Made by a program: the position numbers and the translations under genes
Source: a virus
IMG/VR virus record: IMGVR_UViG_3300033153_009355
Location: 1 to 42,608 of that record
Length of the DNA: 42,608 nucleotides
Direction: 5' to 3' (one strand)
In this document: piece after piece, positions 100 to 42,608 of the stretch
How positions within the stretch are numbered: the stretch's first letter is position 1
Layout of the letters: every line of letters starts with the position of its first letter
The notes under the pieces: generated by a model
Databases searched by the model: none
Seen by the model: only the letters and a program-made list of their open reading frames with translations
What the model was told of the DNA's origin: nothing

Positions 100-126
100 A
101 GCTTGTGTTTTGGGTGAGTAGTCCAT
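1..126 (-). CDS. DUF6745-like protein, 5' end (continues at 42608)
   Basis: This is the start of the gene whose remainder lies at 41550-42608. Read from ATG at 126-124 it adds 13 residues (MDYSPKTQALIER) before the MCRNIER start visible at the right end, giving a protein of 361 residues on a closed circle. The ATG shares its A with the TAA stop of the 98-residue gene at 126-422 (TAATG), the usual coupling in this genome, so this is the natural start. Function is discussed at the main part of the gene. Confidence 0.8.
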   Translation of the reverse strand, partial: MDYSPKTQALIERMCRNIEREDFTLDKKNAEECILKTYDLFG

Positions 127-422
127 TAGTCACCTACCCTTCTCATTTCTTCTTCGAACGGGTCGAACTCCTGCTCTCGTTCCACAATATAAGTGTCGGG
201 TGCTATCTCTCTTACACCATGCTCTTCGTGGTCTATGTGCGTTACTCCTGACCTAAAATGCATCACGCCGTCCTTTTCATAGACCGTATAATCCCCGTCT
301 ATAAGTCTATGAGCATGACCCGTTACCTCACCCCTTGCCAATATATTCGTTTTTACTTCTTTAGCCCCTTCTGGTATTGCTTTGATACTTTTGATACACA
401 AATCACCATGTCTGTAAATCAT
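126..422 (-). CDS. Small conserved phage-type protein, partner of the DUF6745-like gene
   Basis: A 98-residue soluble protein preceded by a strong AAGGAGGTG site. It begins MIYRHGDLCIKSI and has the segments ARGEVTGHAHRL, THIDHEEHG and a C-terminal EREQEFDPFEEE. I recognise this type (GD near the start, GEVTGHxH, HEEH, then QxEFDP) as a recurrent small phage/bacterial protein of unknown function; the paired histidines could bind metal, which is inference. Its stop overlaps the start of the DUF6745-like gene (TAATG), so the two are translationally coupled. A copy of its last residues is found as a fragment at 41476-41550, which shows that the duplicated unit once included the end of this gene. 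Confidence 0.7.
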   Translation of the reverse strand: MIYRHGDLCIKSIKAIPEGAKEVKTNILARGEVTGHAHRLIDGDYTVYEKDGVMHFRSGVTHIDHEEHGVREIAPDTYIVEREQEFDPFEEEMRRVGD

Positions 423-1273: not shown

Positions 1274-1664
1274 AGTAATCCTTATATATTTGTAATATAG
1301 CGGATACTCTTTTTTGATTTATTGTATCTTCTTTTGGTATATGTTTTTTCATAAATACGAGCCAAAATAAATTTGACATATTTTTAGCATACACTTCTTT
1401 ATATCTTTCTATATATCTAACTATAATACCTTGCCTCCAGAACTCGTCCTTGACTTCATATTTTGAATTTACAGCTTTTTTGTCTATATATTGCCTTATT
1501 TCTATCGGTTTATCCGGGTATGGCTCAAACCTACAATCAGATATAAATTGAGTTAGCCAATATGCACACTCAAAATTGAACTCATCTATGCTTATTTCCT
1601 TATTTCTTAACTGTTTTAACAGATTTTTCCCTAATTCCGGCATACCTTGCTCTACTTCCGCCAT
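1248..1664 (-). CDS. Hypothetical replication-operon protein, 138 aa
   Basis: A mostly helical, acidic protein (MAEVEQGMPELGKNLLKQL at the start, YKDYYDEEEITA at the end) with aromatic-rich middle helices (FWRQGIIVRYIERYKEVYA). Its start overlaps the end of the replication initiator by 13 bases, the position where many phages carry a helicase loader or initiator partner. I see no Walker motifs, so an ATPase loader of the DnaC type is unlikely. A role in replication is inferred from position only. Confidence 0.5.
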   Translation of the reverse strand: MAEVEQGMPELGKNLLKQLRNKEISIDEFNFECAYWLTQFISDCRFEPYPDKPIEIRQYIDKKAVNSKYEVKDEFWRQGIIVRYIERYKEVYAKNMSNLFWLVFMKKHIPKEDTINQKRVSAILQIYKDYYDEEEITA

Positions 1665-2458
1665 TTGTCTATGCCCTCCGCGTCATCTTTATACTTTCCT
1701 TCTAATACCTTGAGATAGTTTTCATCGTTTTTTATCAGCCAATCGAATGAGATTCGCCACCCTCTTTTATTATTACCCTTTAAAAAGCTACTTCTTGGTA
1801 TTAAGGAGATAGCAGTATTTATATTCTCGACAAAATGCTTATTTTCAAACCTTCTCTTTAAATGCAATCTTCTTCCTTCCGATATTCTTATTATCCTTGA
1901 AAGTGTGGGAATTTTATCACAGACAAGGTTCCAGGAGGAGAGGATTTTCTTTTCAAGCATTAAATAAGGGCTACTGTCCTTACCTACCTTACCTATATCT
2001 ACACCTATATCTCTATTATTAATGTCTTTACTATGTATACATATATTTAACTTATCTTTACTTATCTTTACTTTACTTATTGCAGAGTCCTCTGGAGTAC
2101 TCTGGAGTACTCTGGAGTACTCTGGAGGTGGTATCTTGCTTTTCGCTTCTTTGTTCTTATCTATCCTCTGGTGGTCATGAAAGCGCGATATTTGTAAATA
2201 CCTGTTTTCATTTATGTTATACAACTTTATCAATCCAACATTATGAAGGTCGCACAATGCTTTTTCTATGGTTTTCTCCGTCCACCCAAATTGTGGAACG
2301 CACTCTATTTTAATATCTGCTGGGTCAGCAACAAATCTGCCCTCGACGTCTACATGGGGATATATCATAAAATATAATGTTCGTGCCTTGTCGTTCTTTA
2401 AGGCACCCATTTTTTTGCTTCTGCGTATTTCTTTCTTTATCATTCTCCCATCTGCCAT
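1652..2458 (-). CDS. Phage replication initiator (winged-helix, O/replisome-organizer type)
   Basis: 268 residues in two parts. Residues 1-105 match the winged-helix N-terminus of phage replication initiators: [56 protein letters not shown], then YLQISRFHDHQRIDK. A low-complexity linker follows (about 110-165). The C-terminal part (about 170-268) has the usual ending with RSSFLKGNNKRGWRISFDWL and YLKVLEGKY. Such proteins bind iterons and bring the helicase to the origin. The linker is coded by short direct repeats (see 2051-2127), the arrangement known from lambda O, where the origin lies inside the gene. The start ATG overlaps the upstream stop (TGATG). Confidence 0.8.
   Translation of the reverse strand: MADGRMIKKEIRRSKKMGALKNDKARTLYFMIYPHVDVEGRFVADPADIKIECVPQFGWTEKTIEKALCDLHNVGLIKLYNINENRYLQISRFHDHQRIDKNKEAKSKIPPPEYSRVLQSTPEDSAISKVKISKDKLNICIHSKDINNRDIGVDIGKVGKDSSPYLMLEKKILSSWNLVCDKIPTLSRIIRISEGRRLHLKRRFENKHFVENINTAISLIPRSSFLKGNNKRGWRISFDWLIKNDENYLKVLEGKYKDDAEGIDKWRK
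2051..2127. other. Candidate replication origin: 10-bp iterons beside an AT-rich stretch
   Basis: TCTGGAGTAC is repeated three times in tandem at 2091-2120, plus seven bases of a fourth copy to 2127. Next to it, CTTATCTTTA is repeated twice (2051-2070) and followed by the related CTTTACTTAT. The region from about 1980 to 2080 is A/T-rich. Both repeats are 10 bp, one helical turn, and lie in the linker-coding part of the initiator gene. This matches the iteron plus unwinding-element layout of lambda-type origins; the function is inferred. Confidence 0.5.
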
Positions 2459-17290: not shown

Positions 17291-17312
17291 GGGGGTGCTT
17301 TATTGCACCCCC
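17291..17312 (+). terminator. GC-rich hairpin after the coat region
   Basis: GGGGGTGC and GCACCCCC form a perfect 8-bp stem around TTTATT. No T-run follows (CCCGGGCCATAC), so it is not a standard terminator; it may pause polymerase, protect the 3' end of coat mRNA, or lower expression of the following membrane gene. Confidence 0.4.
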
Positions 17313-17326
17313 CCGGGCCATACAAC

Positions 17327-18481
17327 ATGAAAGAAACAACAATACTTACTATAATAGCCCTGTTTTTTGTTACCATTGCGAGCGCAATACCATTCCCGAG
17401 CTATAACGTATGGTTCGGGCAATATGTCGGCCTGCTTGCAATATTTTTTATATCATTAGTGCTTTACTTGTGGAATAAGAATAAACCACTCTCCCTGTTT
17501 CTTTCATTTTGTATATTGTCCACGTTCTCTGTAACAAGATTAAGCCCCAGGGCTATTATGCTTATGTATCAGATAAGCTTGGGGGCTGTATTTGTTTATG
17601 CTATCGCACAATTGAATTATAAAAATAGGGAAAAAATAAAATATGCGATAGCATTGCTTGTTATGCTTCAGTTTTTATGGATTATACTTCAATGGTGCGG
17701 TTTAGACCCGCTATTTGTATGTGTGTATAATGATAAAATGGATGGCTTGGTTGGTTTTAGCGGAGCCCCCAATCAGATAGGAGCTTTTTTCGCCATTACA
17801 TTGCCGATGATGCTTCATATACATCCGCTTCTTTCGATTATATCAATAATCGGGCTTATAGTATCGCGGTCATCTTTTGCTTTTGTGGCGGGCATTGTCT
17901 CCGGCTTGCTATATTGTTTTTTTGTTTATAGAAAATTTTTTTACTACATACTTATTGCATTTACGCTTATAAGCGCTTTCTTTTTAAAAAAGGTAGATAA
18001 CCCCTGTTTTGTAGATTTTAAAACCAGATTTGGCGTATGGGCTCATGCAATACACTCTACGATAGAGGGGGATATAAGCATGAAACATGCTGGGCGTGAG
18101 GGTATCGTCAAGACGAACCCGCTTTATGGCTATGGTTTGGGCAACTTTTTTGTAATATTCCCACGAACTCCGGAAAGGCCGTATTTTAATTATGAAAGGG
18201 AAAAATATAATCATGCCCACAATGAATATGTGGAGTCTTTTTTTGAGCTTGGCTATATTGGCATAATAATAATATTTTCAATGATAATAAAGTTTTTTAT
18301 CAATTTTCTATATACCATAAAAGATGAAGAAATAATGGCGTATTTTTGCTGTATAATGGCGATACTCATAAATTCAATGGGCAATTTTACTTTACATATA
18401 GCATTAAACGGGTTGTTGCTTATAGTATATTATGGCTTATTTGAAGGAGTTCGCATTGGGAACAAAACCAGGTTGGTATAA
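17327..18481 (+). CDS. O-antigen ligase/polymerase-like membrane protein (Wzy/WaaL family)
   Basis: 384 residues from ATG 17327 (an upstream in-frame TTG lies in the hairpin). About ten or eleven transmembrane helices, for example ILTIIALFFVTIASAIPF and LLSIISIIGLIVSRSSFAFV. A large periplasmic loop (about 225-305) carries the family landmarks: RFGVWAHAIHS, KTNPLYGYGLGNFFVIFP and KYNHAHNEYVESFFELGYIG, matching the H-N-x-x-L/V...E-x-G-x-x-G motif of Wzy_C proteins. These join or polymerise surface glycans. In a late phage operon it may change host lipopolysaccharide to stop superinfection or re-adsorption. It lies among structural genes, which is unusual. The next gene starts inside its end. 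Confidence 0.75.
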   Translation: MKETTILTIIALFFVTIASAIPFPSYNVWFGQYVGLLAIFFISLVLYLWNKNKPLSLFLSFCILSTFSVTRLSPRAIMLMYQISLGAVFVYAIAQLNYKNREKIKYAIALLVMLQFLWIILQWCGLDPLFVCVYNDKMDGLVGFSGAPNQIGAFFAITLPMMLHIHPLLSIISIIGLIVSRSSFAFVAGIVSGLLYCFFVYRKFFYYILIAFTLISAFFLKKVDNPCFVDFKTRFGVWAHAIHSTIEGDISMKHAGREGIVKTNPLYGYGLGNFFVIFPRTPERPYFNYEREKYNHAHNEYVESFFELGYIGIIIIFSMIIKFFINFLYTIKDEEIMAYFCCIMAILINSMGNFTLHIALNGLLLIVYYGLFEGVRIGNKTRLV

Positions 18482-38992: not shown

Positions 38993-39979
38993 CTATGTTT
39001 CTTCTTCTCTTTTCCCTGCATACCCCCCCCTCAAGCTCACCTTTTCTTTTTCATAAACAACTTTCCACTTCTCTGGATGTCTGCCATTATAATTATATTC
39101 ACTAACATAAACCGCATGGTTCTGTTTTTCAGCCCAGCCCCAGAAAGCTTTATGGTTAAATTCTTCTTTTAAATAATTTACCGCTTCTTTTATTTTATAT
39201 GGTATGTCGCAATAGACAACGCTGTTGGGAGATATTTTTACATCTCTATAATCTTGTTGTAGTCGTTCCAGCCTCGCCAGTTGTTCCAGCTGTTGCAGTC
39301 GTTCCAGTCGTTCCAGTTGTTCCAGTTGTTCCAGTCGTTGCAGCCCCGCCAGTTGTTCCGGCTGTAGTTGTTGTAGTTGCAAAAAAGAATATCGCCTTTT
39401 CAAGTAGTTTGTTCGTATCCAATTAACAACCCTTAAATGTTCTCTCCGTCCGCCCCCCTCCCGATAGGTCTCTTTATATAAGTTCAAAAACACTTCTGGT
39501 TTATCTATCCTATATTTTTTCAAAACTTCTTTCAGAAAACCGTAAGTGTATAACTTTTCAAAATAAGACCAATTATCAAAGATTACAACATAATGAAATG
39601 CCTTCTTAATGGGTTCTATATCTTTTGGAAATAAATAACTTCTACCATTATTACCAAAACTCCAGACCCACCTTATATATGGGTCAGGCTTATCTTTTTT
39701 CAATTCATTACGAAACATTTCCCTGCTTATCCATCTTTTCTCATTTCTGTATTTGCCCGAAATCGCATCACAAAAAAGTTTTGGTGCGTTATTTATATCG
39801 TTGATAATATATTTTTTATACCCTCCGTGAAATAAATCGTGTTTTTTAATCATTAAGGCATGGGTGATAGCGCAACCACCAGCAAATAAATCATAGAAAT
39901 TATCTGCGATTGGGAACAAAGAAACAATTTCTCTGGCTATTTTAGACTTGCTCCCCAAATATGGTGCCCCGTAATTCAT
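38993..39979 (-). CDS. D12-class DNA adenine methyltransferase with inserted tripeptide repeat
   Basis: 328 residues. The Dam/D12 landmarks: APYLGSKSKIAREIVSLFP (SAM-binding motif X), NFYDLFAGGCAITHALM (motif I, D-L-F-x-G), and near residue 255 VVYCDIPYK in place of the catalytic D-P-P-Y, with Ile for the first Pro. The C-terminus has AFWGWAEKQNHAVYVSEYNY. Between the middle region and the catalytic motif, about residues 200-240 consist of L-x-x repeats (LQRLEQLEQLERLERLQQLE and more) coded by a 9-bp array. It should methylate adenine N6 in an unknown site; protection from host restriction is likely. Whether the repeat alters the target is open. Confidence 0.8.
   Translation of the reverse strand: MNYGAPYLGSKSKIAREIVSLFPIADNFYDLFAGGCAITHALMIKKHDLFHGGYKKYIINDINNAPKLFCDAISGKYRNEKRWISREMFRNELKKDKPDPYIRWVWSFGNNGRSYLFPKDIEPIKKAFHYVVIFDNWSYFEKLYTYGFLKEVLKKYRIDKPEVFLNLYKETYREGGGRREHLRVVNWIRTNYLKRRYSFLQLQQLQPEQLAGLQRLEQLEQLERLERLQQLEQLARLERLQQDYRDVKISPNSVVYCDIPYKIKEAVNYLKEEFNHKAFWGWAEKQNHAVYVSEYNYNGRHPEKWKVVYEKEKVSLRGGYAGKREEET
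39260..39376 (-). repeat. 9-bp tandem array in the methyltransferase gene (13 units)
   Basis: Units of nine bases, consensus CAGTTGTTC on the plus strand (variants CAGTCGTTC, CAGCTGTTG, CAGCCTCGC, CAGCCCCGC), in frame with the gene. They code L-(E/Q/A)-(Q/R/G): Leu is constant and the other two codons switch between a few alternatives. The units at the left and right edges are more diverged. Confidence 0.9.
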
Positions 39980-40020
39980 ATATCACCAGCCCATTCTTGC
40001 TATAATATGATATTAAAAAG

Positions 40021-40170
40021 TTAATTCTGACTTATTATATTATCTACCAGTCCGAAACTTAATATATAGATAATTGATAGCACAAATAATAGTGCCCAAG
40101 CATATGGAGCTACGCACATATAAAAACATATTTTATAAATCTTTAATTGCTTTTCTATATTTTTATTCAT
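40021..40170 (-). CDS. Small membrane protein, 49 aa
   Basis: ATG 40170 lies inside the upstream gene's end with GGGGGAG just before it. MNKNIEKQLKIYKICFYMCV, then APYAWALLFVLSIIYILSFG: one or two membrane helices. The gap 39980-40020 below it holds nothing recognisable. Confidence 0.5.
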   Translation of the reverse strand: MNKNIEKQLKIYKICFYMCVAPYAWALLFVLSIIYILSFGLVDNIISQN

Positions 40171-40462
40171 AACTCCCCCTTATTATATTATTATAATACC
40201 CATTTCCATTGTTGTAGAAAAAACCCTTGCCGGTTGTTATATCCCATATCATTATAAAGAAAATAATAAAAATGATTATTGCAAAAAACACACTTCTTCT
40301 GCGTTCTGTTTTTAATATTGGGTTGGGCAGGGAATAAAAAAGAAACATAAAATATAGAATATGTAATGGCATTGATATAAAAAATACAAAAAAGTCATTA
40401 TTGACGGTATATATAAGCAATATTGACAATATATAAGCAATCGTTATACAGATAATATGCAT
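40163..40462 (-). CDS. Polytopic small membrane protein, 99 aa
   Basis: Three membrane segments (ICITIAYILSILLIYTV, FFVFFISMPLHILYFMFLFY, SVFFAIIIFIIFFIMIWD) with a short basic loop KTERRR and an Asn/Gly/Tyr-rich tail. Not recognised. It lies just below the duplicated DUF6745-like gene and overlaps the next membrane gene by 8 bases. Confidence 0.5.
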   Translation of the reverse strand: MHIICITIAYILSILLIYTVNNDFFVFFISMPLHILYFMFLFYSLPNPILKTERRRSVFFAIIIFIIFFIMIWDITTGKGFFYNNGNGYYNNIIRGSYE

Positions 40463-40489
40463 TTCTTCCTTCTGTAATCCTTCTTCTCT

Positions 40490-41491
40490 CTACGCCTCCC
40501 ACGCTAAATTGTTATATTCGACAGGTGTCAGCTTGAAACTGTGCGCTTGGGCTTCATCAGCTTTCTCAAACTCATATGGCACAAACTTGACATATTCTCT
40601 ATTCGTGGAAGGGCAGAAGTAGCGGAGCAGCTTAACGACTCTATCCGGGATGAGGTTTTCAATTCCATAGAGTTCGTTACGGTCTGACTTGTCTATCAAT
40701 TTAGCGTCGAGTTCTTTTAACAGGTTCTTCGCACCATATAATTTAAGGGCGATATATCTTTGTTCTATATTCTTAAGCTTCAATATATCTTTAGCTGGAA
40801 GTTTTCTATTTGTTACCTTTTCCCATAGTTCTTTTCCAAATCCTACACCATGAATAAAGAAAAACTCGCTTCCCTTTTTCCACCTAATCGCCGGCTCTGT
40901 AAGTGAATGAAATCTTGGTGGTGTTGCTGTGTCTACTTTTACTATCGGAGTTGGTGCAAGATACAGGGTATCTTCATGTTCCGCCCTATACCCAAGTCCA
41001 TATTCTTTGGCTTGCATTAAAAGTTCGCAGTATTCTAAATATTTAAAATCGTTCTCATTGGGCAACTTGCCCTTATCTGGATTTTGGCAATACTCATATT
41101 CATAAATGTAATAATCGAAATCATAATCTAATGCAAACCACGCAAACTCCGCAGACCTCGCAGACCTCGCAGACCCCGCAGACCTCGCAGACCCCGCAGA
41201 CCTCGCAGACCTCGCAGAACTCGCAGATCTCGCAGACCACGCAGAACTCGCAGACCTCGCAGGGCCCGCAGCCCTCGCAGACCTCGCAGACATCGCAGAC
41301 CTCGCAGACCACGTAGACCACCCAGACCACGCACAATCACAAGCCCTGCTATACTCCTTGTCAAAAATATCAATGTACCATTTGACATTCTTTGGTCTTT
41401 TTAAACCAAATAAATCATAGGTCTTCAGGATACATTCTTCTGCGTTCTTCTTGTCGAGAGTAAAATCTTCTCTTTCTATATTTCGGCACAT
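40490..41491 (-). CDS. DUF6745-like protein, copy A, with tripeptide-repeat insert
   Basis: 333 residues from MCRNIEREDF at 41491. Order: N-terminal part (1-51), a repeat insert (about 52-119) of S-A-x units in which x is R, G, W, M, S or E, then a conserved part (about 125-333) with PRFHSLTEPAIRWKKGSEFF, FIHGVGFGKELWEKV, LPAKDILKLKNIEQRYIALK and a final VKFVPYEFEKADEAQAHSFK. The conserved part looks like what I remember as DUF6745, function unknown. Compared with copy B at 41550 it lacks the first 13 residues and differs at about ten positions outside the array. It has only a weak start site, so it may be less expressed. Confidence 0.65.
   Translation of the reverse strand: MCRNIEREDFTLDKKNAEECILKTYDLFGLKRPKNVKWYIDIFDKEYSRACDCAWSGWSTWSARSAMSARSARAAGPARSASSAWSARSASSARSARSAGSARSAGSARSARSAEFAWFALDYDFDYYIYEYEYCQNPDKGKLPNENDFKYLEYCELLMQAKEYGLGYRAEHEDTLYLAPTPIVKVDTATPPRFHSLTEPAIRWKKGSEFFFIHGVGFGKELWEKVTNRKLPAKDILKLKNIEQRYIALKLYGAKNLLKELDAKLIDKSDRNELYGIENLIPDRVVKLLRYFCPSTNREYVKFVPYEFEKADEAQAHSFKLTPVEYNNLAWEA
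41133..41339 (-). repeat. 9-bp tandem array in copy A (23 units)
   Basis: Twenty-three units with plus-strand consensus GCAGACCTC; variation is concentrated at bases 6-8 (CCT, CCC, ACT, TCT, CCA, CAT). Read in the gene frame: TCT GCG NNN, so Ser-Ala-x, with x changing. The repeat length keeps all three minus frames and plus frames largely open. Confidence 0.9.
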
Positions 41492-41503
41492 TCTCTCGAT
41501 AAG
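41405..41503. repeat. Internal copy of the terminal 99-base repeat
   Basis: Identical to 1-99 and 42510-42608; identity runs one base further (41504 = 100), then breaks off. It is the N-terminal coding part of copy A. Confidence 0.9.
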
Positions 41504-41550
41504 AACGGGTCGAACTCCTGCTCGCTCTCTACGATATAAGTGTAGTTCAT
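41476..41550 (-). pseudogene. Chimeric remnant of the 98-residue partner gene
   Basis: An ATG at 41550 overlaps the stop of copy B (TGATG) and opens 24 codons. The first part MNYTYIVESEQEFDPF copies the C-terminus of the 98-residue protein (TYIVEREQEFDPF). It then runs into the 5' end of copy A in a wrong frame (LSRECAEI). This is the junction of the tandem duplication. Confidence 0.75.
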
Positions 41551-42608
41551 CACGCCTCCCACGCTAAATTGTTATATTCGACAAGTGTCAGCTTGAAACT
41601 GTGCGCTTGTGCTTCATCAGCTTTCTCAAACTCATATGGCACAAACTTGACATATTCTCTATTCGTGGAAGGGCAGAAGTAGCGGAGCAGCTTAACGACT
41701 TTATCCGGGATGAGGTTTTCAATTCCATAGAGTTCGTTGCGGTCTGACTTGTCTATCAATTTAGCATCGAGTTCTTTTAACAGGTTCTTCGCGCCATATA
41801 ATTTAAGGGCGATATATCTTTGTTCTATATTCTTAAGCTTCAATATATCTTTAGCCGGAAGTTTTCTGTTTGTTACCTTTTCCCATAGTTCTTTTCCAAA
41901 TCTTACACCATGAATAAAGAAAAACTCGCTTCCCTTTTTCCACCTAATCGCCGGCTCTGTAAGTGAATGAAATCTTGGTGGTGTTGCTGTGTTTACTTTT
42001 ACTATCGGAGTTGGTGCAAAATACAGGGTATCTTCATGTTCCACCCTATACCCGAGTCCATATTCTTTGGCTTGCATTAAAAGTTCGCAGTATTCTAAAT
42101 ATTTAAAATCGTTTTCATTGGGCAACTTGCCCTTATCTGGATTTTGGCAATACTCATATTCATAAATGTAATAATCGAAATCATAATCTACTGCAATCCA
42201 TGCAGACCCCGCAGACCGTGCAGACCCCGCAGCCCTCGCAGCCCTCGCAGACCTCACAGAGCTCGCAAACCACGTAGACCACGCAGACCCCGCAGAACTC
42301 ACAATCCACGCAGACCCCGCAGACATCGCAGAACCCGCAGACCCCGCAGACCCCGCAGAACTCGCAGACCTCGCAGACCTCGCAGCCCTCGCAGCCCTCG
42401 CAGAACCCGCAGACCTCACAGAGCTCGCAAACCACGCACAATCACAAACCCTGCTATACTCCTCGTCAAAAATATCAATGTACCATTTGACATCCTTTGG
42501 TCTTTTTAAACCAAATAAATCATAGGTCTTCAGGATACATTCTTCTGCGTTCTTCTTGTCGAGAGTAAAATCTTCTCTTTCTATATTTCGGCACATTCTC
42601 TCGATAAG
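41550..42608 (-). CDS. DUF6745-like protein, copy B, with longer tripeptide-repeat insert (continues at 126)
   Basis: Main part of a 361-residue protein (348 residues visible from MCRNIEREDF at 42596; the true start is at 126 across the join). Same order as copy A: residues 1-51 of the visible part, repeat insert (about 52-134), then conserved DUF6745-like part with EPAIRWKKGSEFFFIHGV and YRVEHEDTLYFAPTPIV. The insert has WFASSVRSA twice, showing a second-level duplication inside the array. It is coupled to the 98-residue gene, so this is the parental copy. Confidence 0.65.
   Translation of the reverse strand, partial: LIERMCRNIEREDFTLDKKNAEECILKTYDLFGLKRPKDVKWYIDIFDEEYSRVCDCAWFASSVRSAGSARAARAARSARSASSAGSAGSAGSAMSAGSAWIVSSAGSAWSTWFASSVRSARAARAAGSARSAGSAWIAVDYDFDYYIYEYEYCQNPDKGKLPNENDFKYLEYCELLMQAKEYGLGYRVEHEDTLYFAPTPIVKVNTATPPRFHSLTEPAIRWKKGSEFFFIHGVRFGKELWEKVTNRKLPAKDILKLKNIEQRYIALKLYGAKNLLKELDAKLIDKSDRNELYGIENLIPDKVVKLLRYFCPSTNREYVKFVPYEFEKADEAQAHSFKLTLVEYNNLAWEA
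42193..42444 (-). repeat. 9-bp tandem array in copy B (28 units)
   Basis: Twenty-eight units of the same family as in copy A, five more than there, which accounts for the whole 45-base (15-residue) difference between the two genes. The order of variants differs from copy A, and a block containing ACAGAGCTC GCAAACCAC occurs twice. Confidence 0.9.
42510..42608. repeat. Terminal direct repeat, right copy
   Basis: Identical to 1-99 and 41405-41503. Joined to the left end, it gives an unbroken gene start, supporting a closed genome of 42509 bases, unless further copies of the duplicated unit were collapsed. Confidence 0.9.

Follow-up and report, generated by a model that had tools for sequence, protein, structure and literature searches.

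Temperate Bacillus subtilis phages are said to encode multispecific DNA methyltransferases. The specificity of multispecific phage methyltransferases, which are cytosine-C5 enzymes, is set by separable recognition modules of the size of a domain. In the Type I S subunit of EcoR124, 2–3 identical 12-bp units (the TAEL repeats) form a spacer, and a change in their copy number changes the DNA target (PMC3874165). The amino-acid tandem repeats of Borgs, found in ~178 proteins and with many unit lengths, are mostly perfect copies and poor in tryptophan (PMC9879509). Here we describe in-frame arrays in two gene families of a tailed phage and its relatives, which we read, with a probability of about 0.58, as a family trait: fast-turning, codon-locked arrays of a small alphabet, produced by slippage or recombination together with selection at the protein level, and serving as a changeable contact surface.

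The window, by which we mean the whole stretch of 42,608 nucleotides analysed, is a 42.6-kb tailed-phage record (IMG/VR IMGVR_UViG_3300033153_009355) in which a profile search found tailed-phage terminase, portal, and capsid genes; the features discussed are listed in Table 1. A preliminary description had reported in-frame 9-bp arrays in three genes, a D12 methyltransferase and two DUF6745-like paralogues. All three arrays are present, on the minus strand, the 23 and 28 units given there for the DUF6745 genes each including one edge unit, and both family assignments were confirmed by profile matches. PF02086 scored 49.1 bits (cut-off 22) on the D12 protein, which has the DPPY-like motif IV in the form CDIPY; PF20530 scored 28.2 bits on copy A (cut-off 27) and, on copy B, 25.7 bits in hmmscan, just under the cut-off, and 27.4 bits in the genome search. 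The best PDB matches of the D12 protein in Foldseek were E. coli Dam and T4 Dam (E 3e-4, probability 1.0), with TM-scores of only ~0.3. The D12 array comes to 13–14 units when the degenerate ones up to 39382 are counted, and the copy B array holds an internal multi-unit duplication (WFASSVRSA...ARAARAA twice). A period-9 autocorrelation scan of the 42.6 kb (background match 0.286 ± 0.077, threshold 0.68) returned exactly three stretches, which are these arrays, and Tandem Repeats Finder found no further long 9-bp array in the window, in agreement with the earlier statement that the genome has no other. Elsewhere in the window, a gene for a Wzy_C (O-antigen ligase/polymerase-like) membrane protein (17303–18481, plus strand) follows soon after that for the capsid, in the midst of the virion genes; the protein possibly serves surface-antigen conversion of the host. 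Three perfect tandem 10-bp direct repeats with the palindrome GAGTACTC lie at 2085–2127, inside a gene at 1652–2458 (minus strand), and could be a protein-binding site or iterons.

Table 1. Coordinates of the arrays, their genes, and neighbouring features in the window.
Feature	Position	Strand	Remarks
Direct terminal repeat, 99 bp	1–99 = 42510–42608		Record closes into a circle here
D12 class N6-adenine DNA methyltransferase (Dam-like), 328 aa	38993–39979	-	PF02086 E 8e-13; phrog_56 DNA methyltransferase; Foldseek
D12 array	39254–39382	-	11 clean L-[E/Q/A]-[Q/R/G] units at 39254–39352 plus degenerate units upstream in the gene
DUF6745 copy A, 333 aa	40490–41491	-	PF20530 E 1.4e-6
Copy A array, 22 A-x-S units	41135–41332	-	Scaffold codons GCG and TCT; x mostly AGG/GGG/TGG
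Spacer between the DUF6745 copies	41492–41549	-	Encodes MNYTYIVESEQEFDPF, left over from the 3' end of that gene of 98 aa which precedes DUF6745; tandem duplication scar
DUF6745 copy B, 348 aa	41550–42596	-	Protein 91% identical to copy A; PF20530 8e-6
Copy B array, 27 units	42195–42437	-	Scaffold codons as in copy A; unit order unrelated to copy A
98-aa partner gene	126–422	-	38 bp upstream of copy B after circle closure

The DUF6745 pair arose by a recent tandem duplication. Outside the arrays, 156/159 and 623/639 flanking bases are identical (19 differences in 798, ~98%), and what the intervening spacer encodes is left over from YIVEREQEFDPF in the upstream 98-aa gene. The flank differences, 10 synonymous and 9 nonsynonymous in 266 codons, suggest constraint from their pattern of substitution. 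The window thus holds two independent array families and not three; the earlier count of two families stands, and the DUF6745 pair does not supply independent cases. The 98-aa protein, which has no Pfam match, adjoins DUF6745 in phages and bacteria, mostly directly upstream. It was found beside DUF6745 at most phage loci and several bacterial loci among those examined (L244-L258, L260, L471, L476-L479, L486-L490), and the two genes therefore form a conserved two-gene module; its position next to DUF6745 also supports circular closure of the window. To judge from this linkage, the two proteins look like a functional pair.

We then compared the arrays with those of ~100 relatives. For DUF6745, a Ser-Ala array scan and a DUF6745 alignment scan gave 20 related loci; single-sequence scans for close relatives found one or none, and the bacterial genome scan with the DUF6745 alignment gave no matches. 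An x-S-A array is present in every phage DUF6745 relative among these loci whose array region could be read (19 arrays, including the two of the window), and these 19 arrays, with 399 units, make up our codon table, from which the truncated L259, L261, and L262 were omitted. No array was found in the DUF6745 genes of the six Microcystis phages examined. The unit is 12 bp long in other members of the family: xSSL in a Manatee Spring phage (AGC and CTC in 29/29 units; x = G, E, W, or R), QLx[D/G] in 46 units of a Mycobacterium abscessus prophage (CAG and CTC in 46/46; x = GGG 23, CGG 14, TGG 9), and QVx[A/D] in 38 units of Nocardia farcinica. With the same alphabet on 12-bp units, a length of nine is not special, and the shared 9-bp unit no longer speaks for a shared mechanism of the D12 and DUF6745 arrays, as had been proposed. 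Nor does their adjacency: a D12 gene over the cut-off occurs in 0/20 other DUF6745 phage records, several of which are fragments, and we rejected a link between the two genes as a general rule. Six bacterial DUF6745 loci (L483, L486-L490) have a leucine-rich-repeat-like sequence before the domain. Near-identical DUF6745 copies (L531/L532) lie on different replicons of Nocardia farcinica NCTC11134, the copy on plasmid 3 being frameshifted within the array, either by sequencing error or by real decay. A literature search found no paper mentioning DUF6745.

For the methyltransferases, a Leu array scan and a D12 alignment scan, the latter with 222 relatives found and 80 of them kept, gave 77 distinct L-[E/Q]-[R/Q/S] arrays of about 4–22 mixed 9-bp units, all in one place, just before the strand leading into motif IV; as the loci were chosen by array pattern, 77 is not a frequency among all D12 enzymes. 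In a partial control, 1 of 30 ordinary D12-profile loci from Lachnospiraceae genomes had an L-[E/Q]-x array and the other 29 had none. In the window, the array directly precedes DYRDV...VVYCDIPY (motif IV), a position shared by 16 aligned relatives. A literature search turned up no relevant account of phage methyltransferases with tripeptide or 9-bp repeats. Arrays of the x-S-A or x-S-A-A type, in which periods of 3 and 4 are mixed, also occur in several other phage proteins (L006, L044, L059, L013, L029, L069, L072); their codons are locked and their alphabets small (W/E/R/Q; K/E with S/Y; Y/D/R). Of these proteins, L069 matches DUF7666, and no Pfam family passes the cut-off for L006, L013, or L072. 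By this pattern, arrays with a codon lock may be widespread.

The scaffold codons are constant within an array and differ between phages, and the variation sits mainly at one or two toggle sites, where each letter can be reached from another by a single base change. In DUF6745, codon identity within versus between arrays was 0.992 versus 0.146 for Ser, 0.961 versus 0.284 for Ala, and 0.939 versus 0.480 for Arg, whereas the identity of the variable residue x was only 0.318 within and 0.272 between arrays. Individual scaffolds are nearly invariant (e.g., TCG 30/30 and GCT 29/30 in L249; TCC 25/25 and GCT 25/25 in L255; AGC 32/32 and GCA 32/32 in L256), and heterozygosity in the 16 arrays from outside the window was 0.65 at base 1 and did not exceed 0.10 at any other base. 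The variable codon is NGG in most units, that is TGG (W), GGG (G), or arginine as AGG or CGG, and W, R, and G account for 363/399 units. AGG and CGG arginines never occur together in any tabulated array; CGN codons other than CGG are mixed in L245. In D12 (77 arrays, 709 units), Leu codon identity was 0.865 within versus 0.206 between arrays and that of the codon-2 wobble base 0.942 versus 0.503, and heterozygosity was 0.41 at base 4 and 0.28 and 0.26 at bases 8 and 9. The second codon toggles between GAR and CAR, its wobble base mostly staying the same, and one base switches the third between R and Q or S (CAA/CGA in 17 arrays, CAG/CGG in 12, AGG/AGT in 8, AGA/AGC in 7, AGC/CGC in 5).

Variation mainly at one or two bases per unit could conceivably be due to targeted hypermutation, by a diversity-generating retroelement or similar, that rewrites the variable bases alone, and the window DUF6745 unit AGG-TCT-GCG indeed has its sole A at the variable site. 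This is highly improbable. No reverse transcriptase was found in the window, as had been noted before, or in 16 DUF6745 phage records (0/17). A random first base of NGG would mix AGG and CGG, but each array uses one or the other, which has a probability of ~10^-34 at equal odds (a rough bound) and argues against such mutagenesis. Moreover, unit number varies as well, and the D12 arrays toggle G/C and A/G, not A alone. One Ser-Ala hexamer is common to all letter classes in 17 of 18 DUF6745 arrays, which is indicative of descent from a shared seed: most likely, point changes in a single recent unit gave rise to the letters of an array, which were then copied, and the letters do not have the appearance of random hits on a single base.

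In both unit number and unit order, the arrays change much faster than the gene around them, which supports rapid diversification by unit gain and loss or by recombination, the latter proposed earlier as one hypothesis; the preliminary description had also asked for a comparison of related genomes, and in those compared the arrays differ. Between the window copies, the unit edit distance was 24 against 22.8 for shuffled arrays, so that their order is no more alike than by chance. The D12 pair L399/L411, with a 5' flank of 98% and a 3' flank of 94% identity, had an edit distance of 9 against 7.5 when shuffled, and the unit orders of L425/L457 (flanks 93–94%) and L386/L420 (92%) were likewise no closer than shuffled. 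L389, L392, and L396 have 17, 15, and 11 units between flanks that are 97–100% identical. At the other end, L413-415 and L443-445 have identical flanks with identical arrays in independent records, and the process is therefore not extremely fast.

Most of these sequences come from metagenomes assembled from short reads, a procedure that can distort the order and length of repeats but not the codon lock. Scrambling or collapse of the repeats during short-read assembly would be favoured by the length of the DUF6745 arrays (up to ~290 bp), which exceeds that of typical short reads; a single perfect 18-bp step is all that separates L389 from L392, and the two Nocardia copies differ only by gaps, one of them a frameshift. 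Nevertheless, misassembly cannot produce a codon lock with an alphabet, independent assemblies with identical flanks gave identical arrays, the same design occurs in records deposited as complete, and most D12 arrays are shorter than 150 bp. We therefore regard an assembly artefact as improbable.

Under the preferred reading of codon-locked arrays kept under selection, replication slippage or unequal recombination would add, remove, and relocate units, mostly as blocks. Repeated regrowth of an array from a small seed would homogenise the synonymous positions, point mutants restoring allowed letters would be amplified, and the mixed alphabet would be selected at the protein level, so that the array could act as a changeable contact surface within a conserved protein. 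The order of the units bears on the size of the steps. Runs of equal neighbours are absent (lag-1 z -0.5 and -1.5); in a simple simulation, single-unit slippage gave an excess of equal neighbours, unlike the data, and block events of ~4 or more units did not. Block events or selection on order must accordingly be assumed. Internal block duplications exceeded shuffles in only 2/18 DUF6745 and 4/64 D12 arrays. Weak lag-2 (D12, z 5.3) and lag-6 (DUF6745, z 3.0) signals in unit order were considered as a structural clue, rejected as such, and read as duplication steps instead.

Tandem units also expand spontaneously, and many bacterial genes contain 9-bp arrays, in whatever frame; our genome scan for NGG-Ser-Ala DNA arrays served as background only, since those examined were generic 9-bp repeats, for the most part uniform and frequently out of the Ser-Ala frame. 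All the same, slippage of simple sequence in the absence of selection is a very improbable account of the phage arrays, as the variable letters would vanish as fast as the scaffold codons homogenise. The reading frame is kept, the variation is mostly nonsynonymous, and many lineages use the W/R/G or the E/Q x R/(Q,S) alphabet again, each time on a different scaffold. The same alphabets on different codon scaffolds across many phages uphold the earlier view that selection for variable repeat surfaces, rather than chance slippage, is at work.

What the arrays do was approached through their position. T4 Dam aligned to the D12 profile on both sides of the array, with residues 4–113 before it and 148–185 after it; the stretch between, we take it, holds the end of the target-recognition region, and the D12 array falls in this stretch. 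AlphaFold gave the D12 array a weak, low-confidence helix (pLDDT 35–78) and the DUF6745 array no structure (pLDDT ~20) between well-predicted flanks. A fold search with DUF6745 returned no significant PDB match and no convincing solved relative; its only matches in the viral library were an uncharacterised fragment and, from Microcystis phage LMM01, a DUF6745 protein. Lying between the target-recognition region and motif IV, the D12 array most plausibly tunes DNA contact or target choice, in the sense of anti-restriction. The DUF6745 array is plausibly a ligand-binding segment, given that some bacterial DUF6745 proteins carry leucine-rich-repeat-like sequence at the array site. The arrays might otherwise be disordered sticker-and-spacer segments, with W/R as stickers and S/A/G as spacers, in which composition is selected and reshuffling is tolerated rather than useful. 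The predicted disorder of the DUF6745 array, its near-random letter order, and its stable W/R/G composition fit such segments, as does the mostly disordered state of Borg amino-acid tandem repeats (PMC9879509). They leave unexplained the D12 alphabet (L with E/Q and R/Q/S) and its fixed site in the methyltransferase, and the relatives with leucine-rich-repeat-like sequence in place of the array suggest binding. Sticker-and-spacer segments are thus possible, if on the whole unlikely. We also consider, as a doubtful extension of the contact-surface reading, a putative modular recognition code in D12, in which the tripeptide units, set in the target-recognition region, would come as four letters (E or Q followed by R or Q/S), with the W/R/G(/E) string of DUF6745 as its analogue for another ligand. 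If the D12 code were true, reshuffling of units would reprogram the methylation target and phages could outrun host restriction.

In essence, tandem units that move fast and combine a frozen codon scaffold with one or two toggle bases would be a simple, recurrent means of leaving part of a phage protein open to permanent change, with no dedicated diversifying enzyme involved. At least two unrelated families share the design across phages, and DUF6745 carries it also in bacteria. As one family is a DNA methyltransferase, the effect of the array on the methylation motif is directly testable; if array content sets that motif, phages carry a self-shuffling anti-restriction specificity module.

With diversity-generating retroelements the arrays share variation that is mostly nonsynonymous and restricted to a single segment of a phage protein. 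They differ in that no reverse transcriptase was found, the letters look as though copied from a single source, the number of units is variable, and the substitutions are not random and adenine-specific. Unlike a phase-variable contingency locus, they have 9- or 12-bp units and frames that stay open through the array, the frameshifted Nocardia copy excepted. Compared with the multispecific methyltransferases of phages, the module here is three residues long and lies in an N6-adenine enzyme. EcoR124 offers short in-frame repeats in a DNA-modification enzyme with copy number differing between variants (PMC3874165), whereas the D12 arrays have ~4–22 mixed 9-bp units in a Dam-type enzyme. Borg repeats resemble the present arrays as rapidly evolving in-frame tandem repeats of an extrachromosomal element, with unit lengths divisible by three, mostly predicted disorder, and homologues alike in amino-acid character and unlike in DNA (PMC9879509). 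In-frame units, like character on different DNA, and rapid turnover are thus common to both. In contrast to the near-perfect repeats that reside in Borgs, the arrays described here have mixed units of 9 or 12 bp with a defined alphabet of 2–4 letters at one or two toggle sites, and they belong to particular protein families of phages and bacteria, one of them W/R/G-rich, the window itself being a tailed-phage record.
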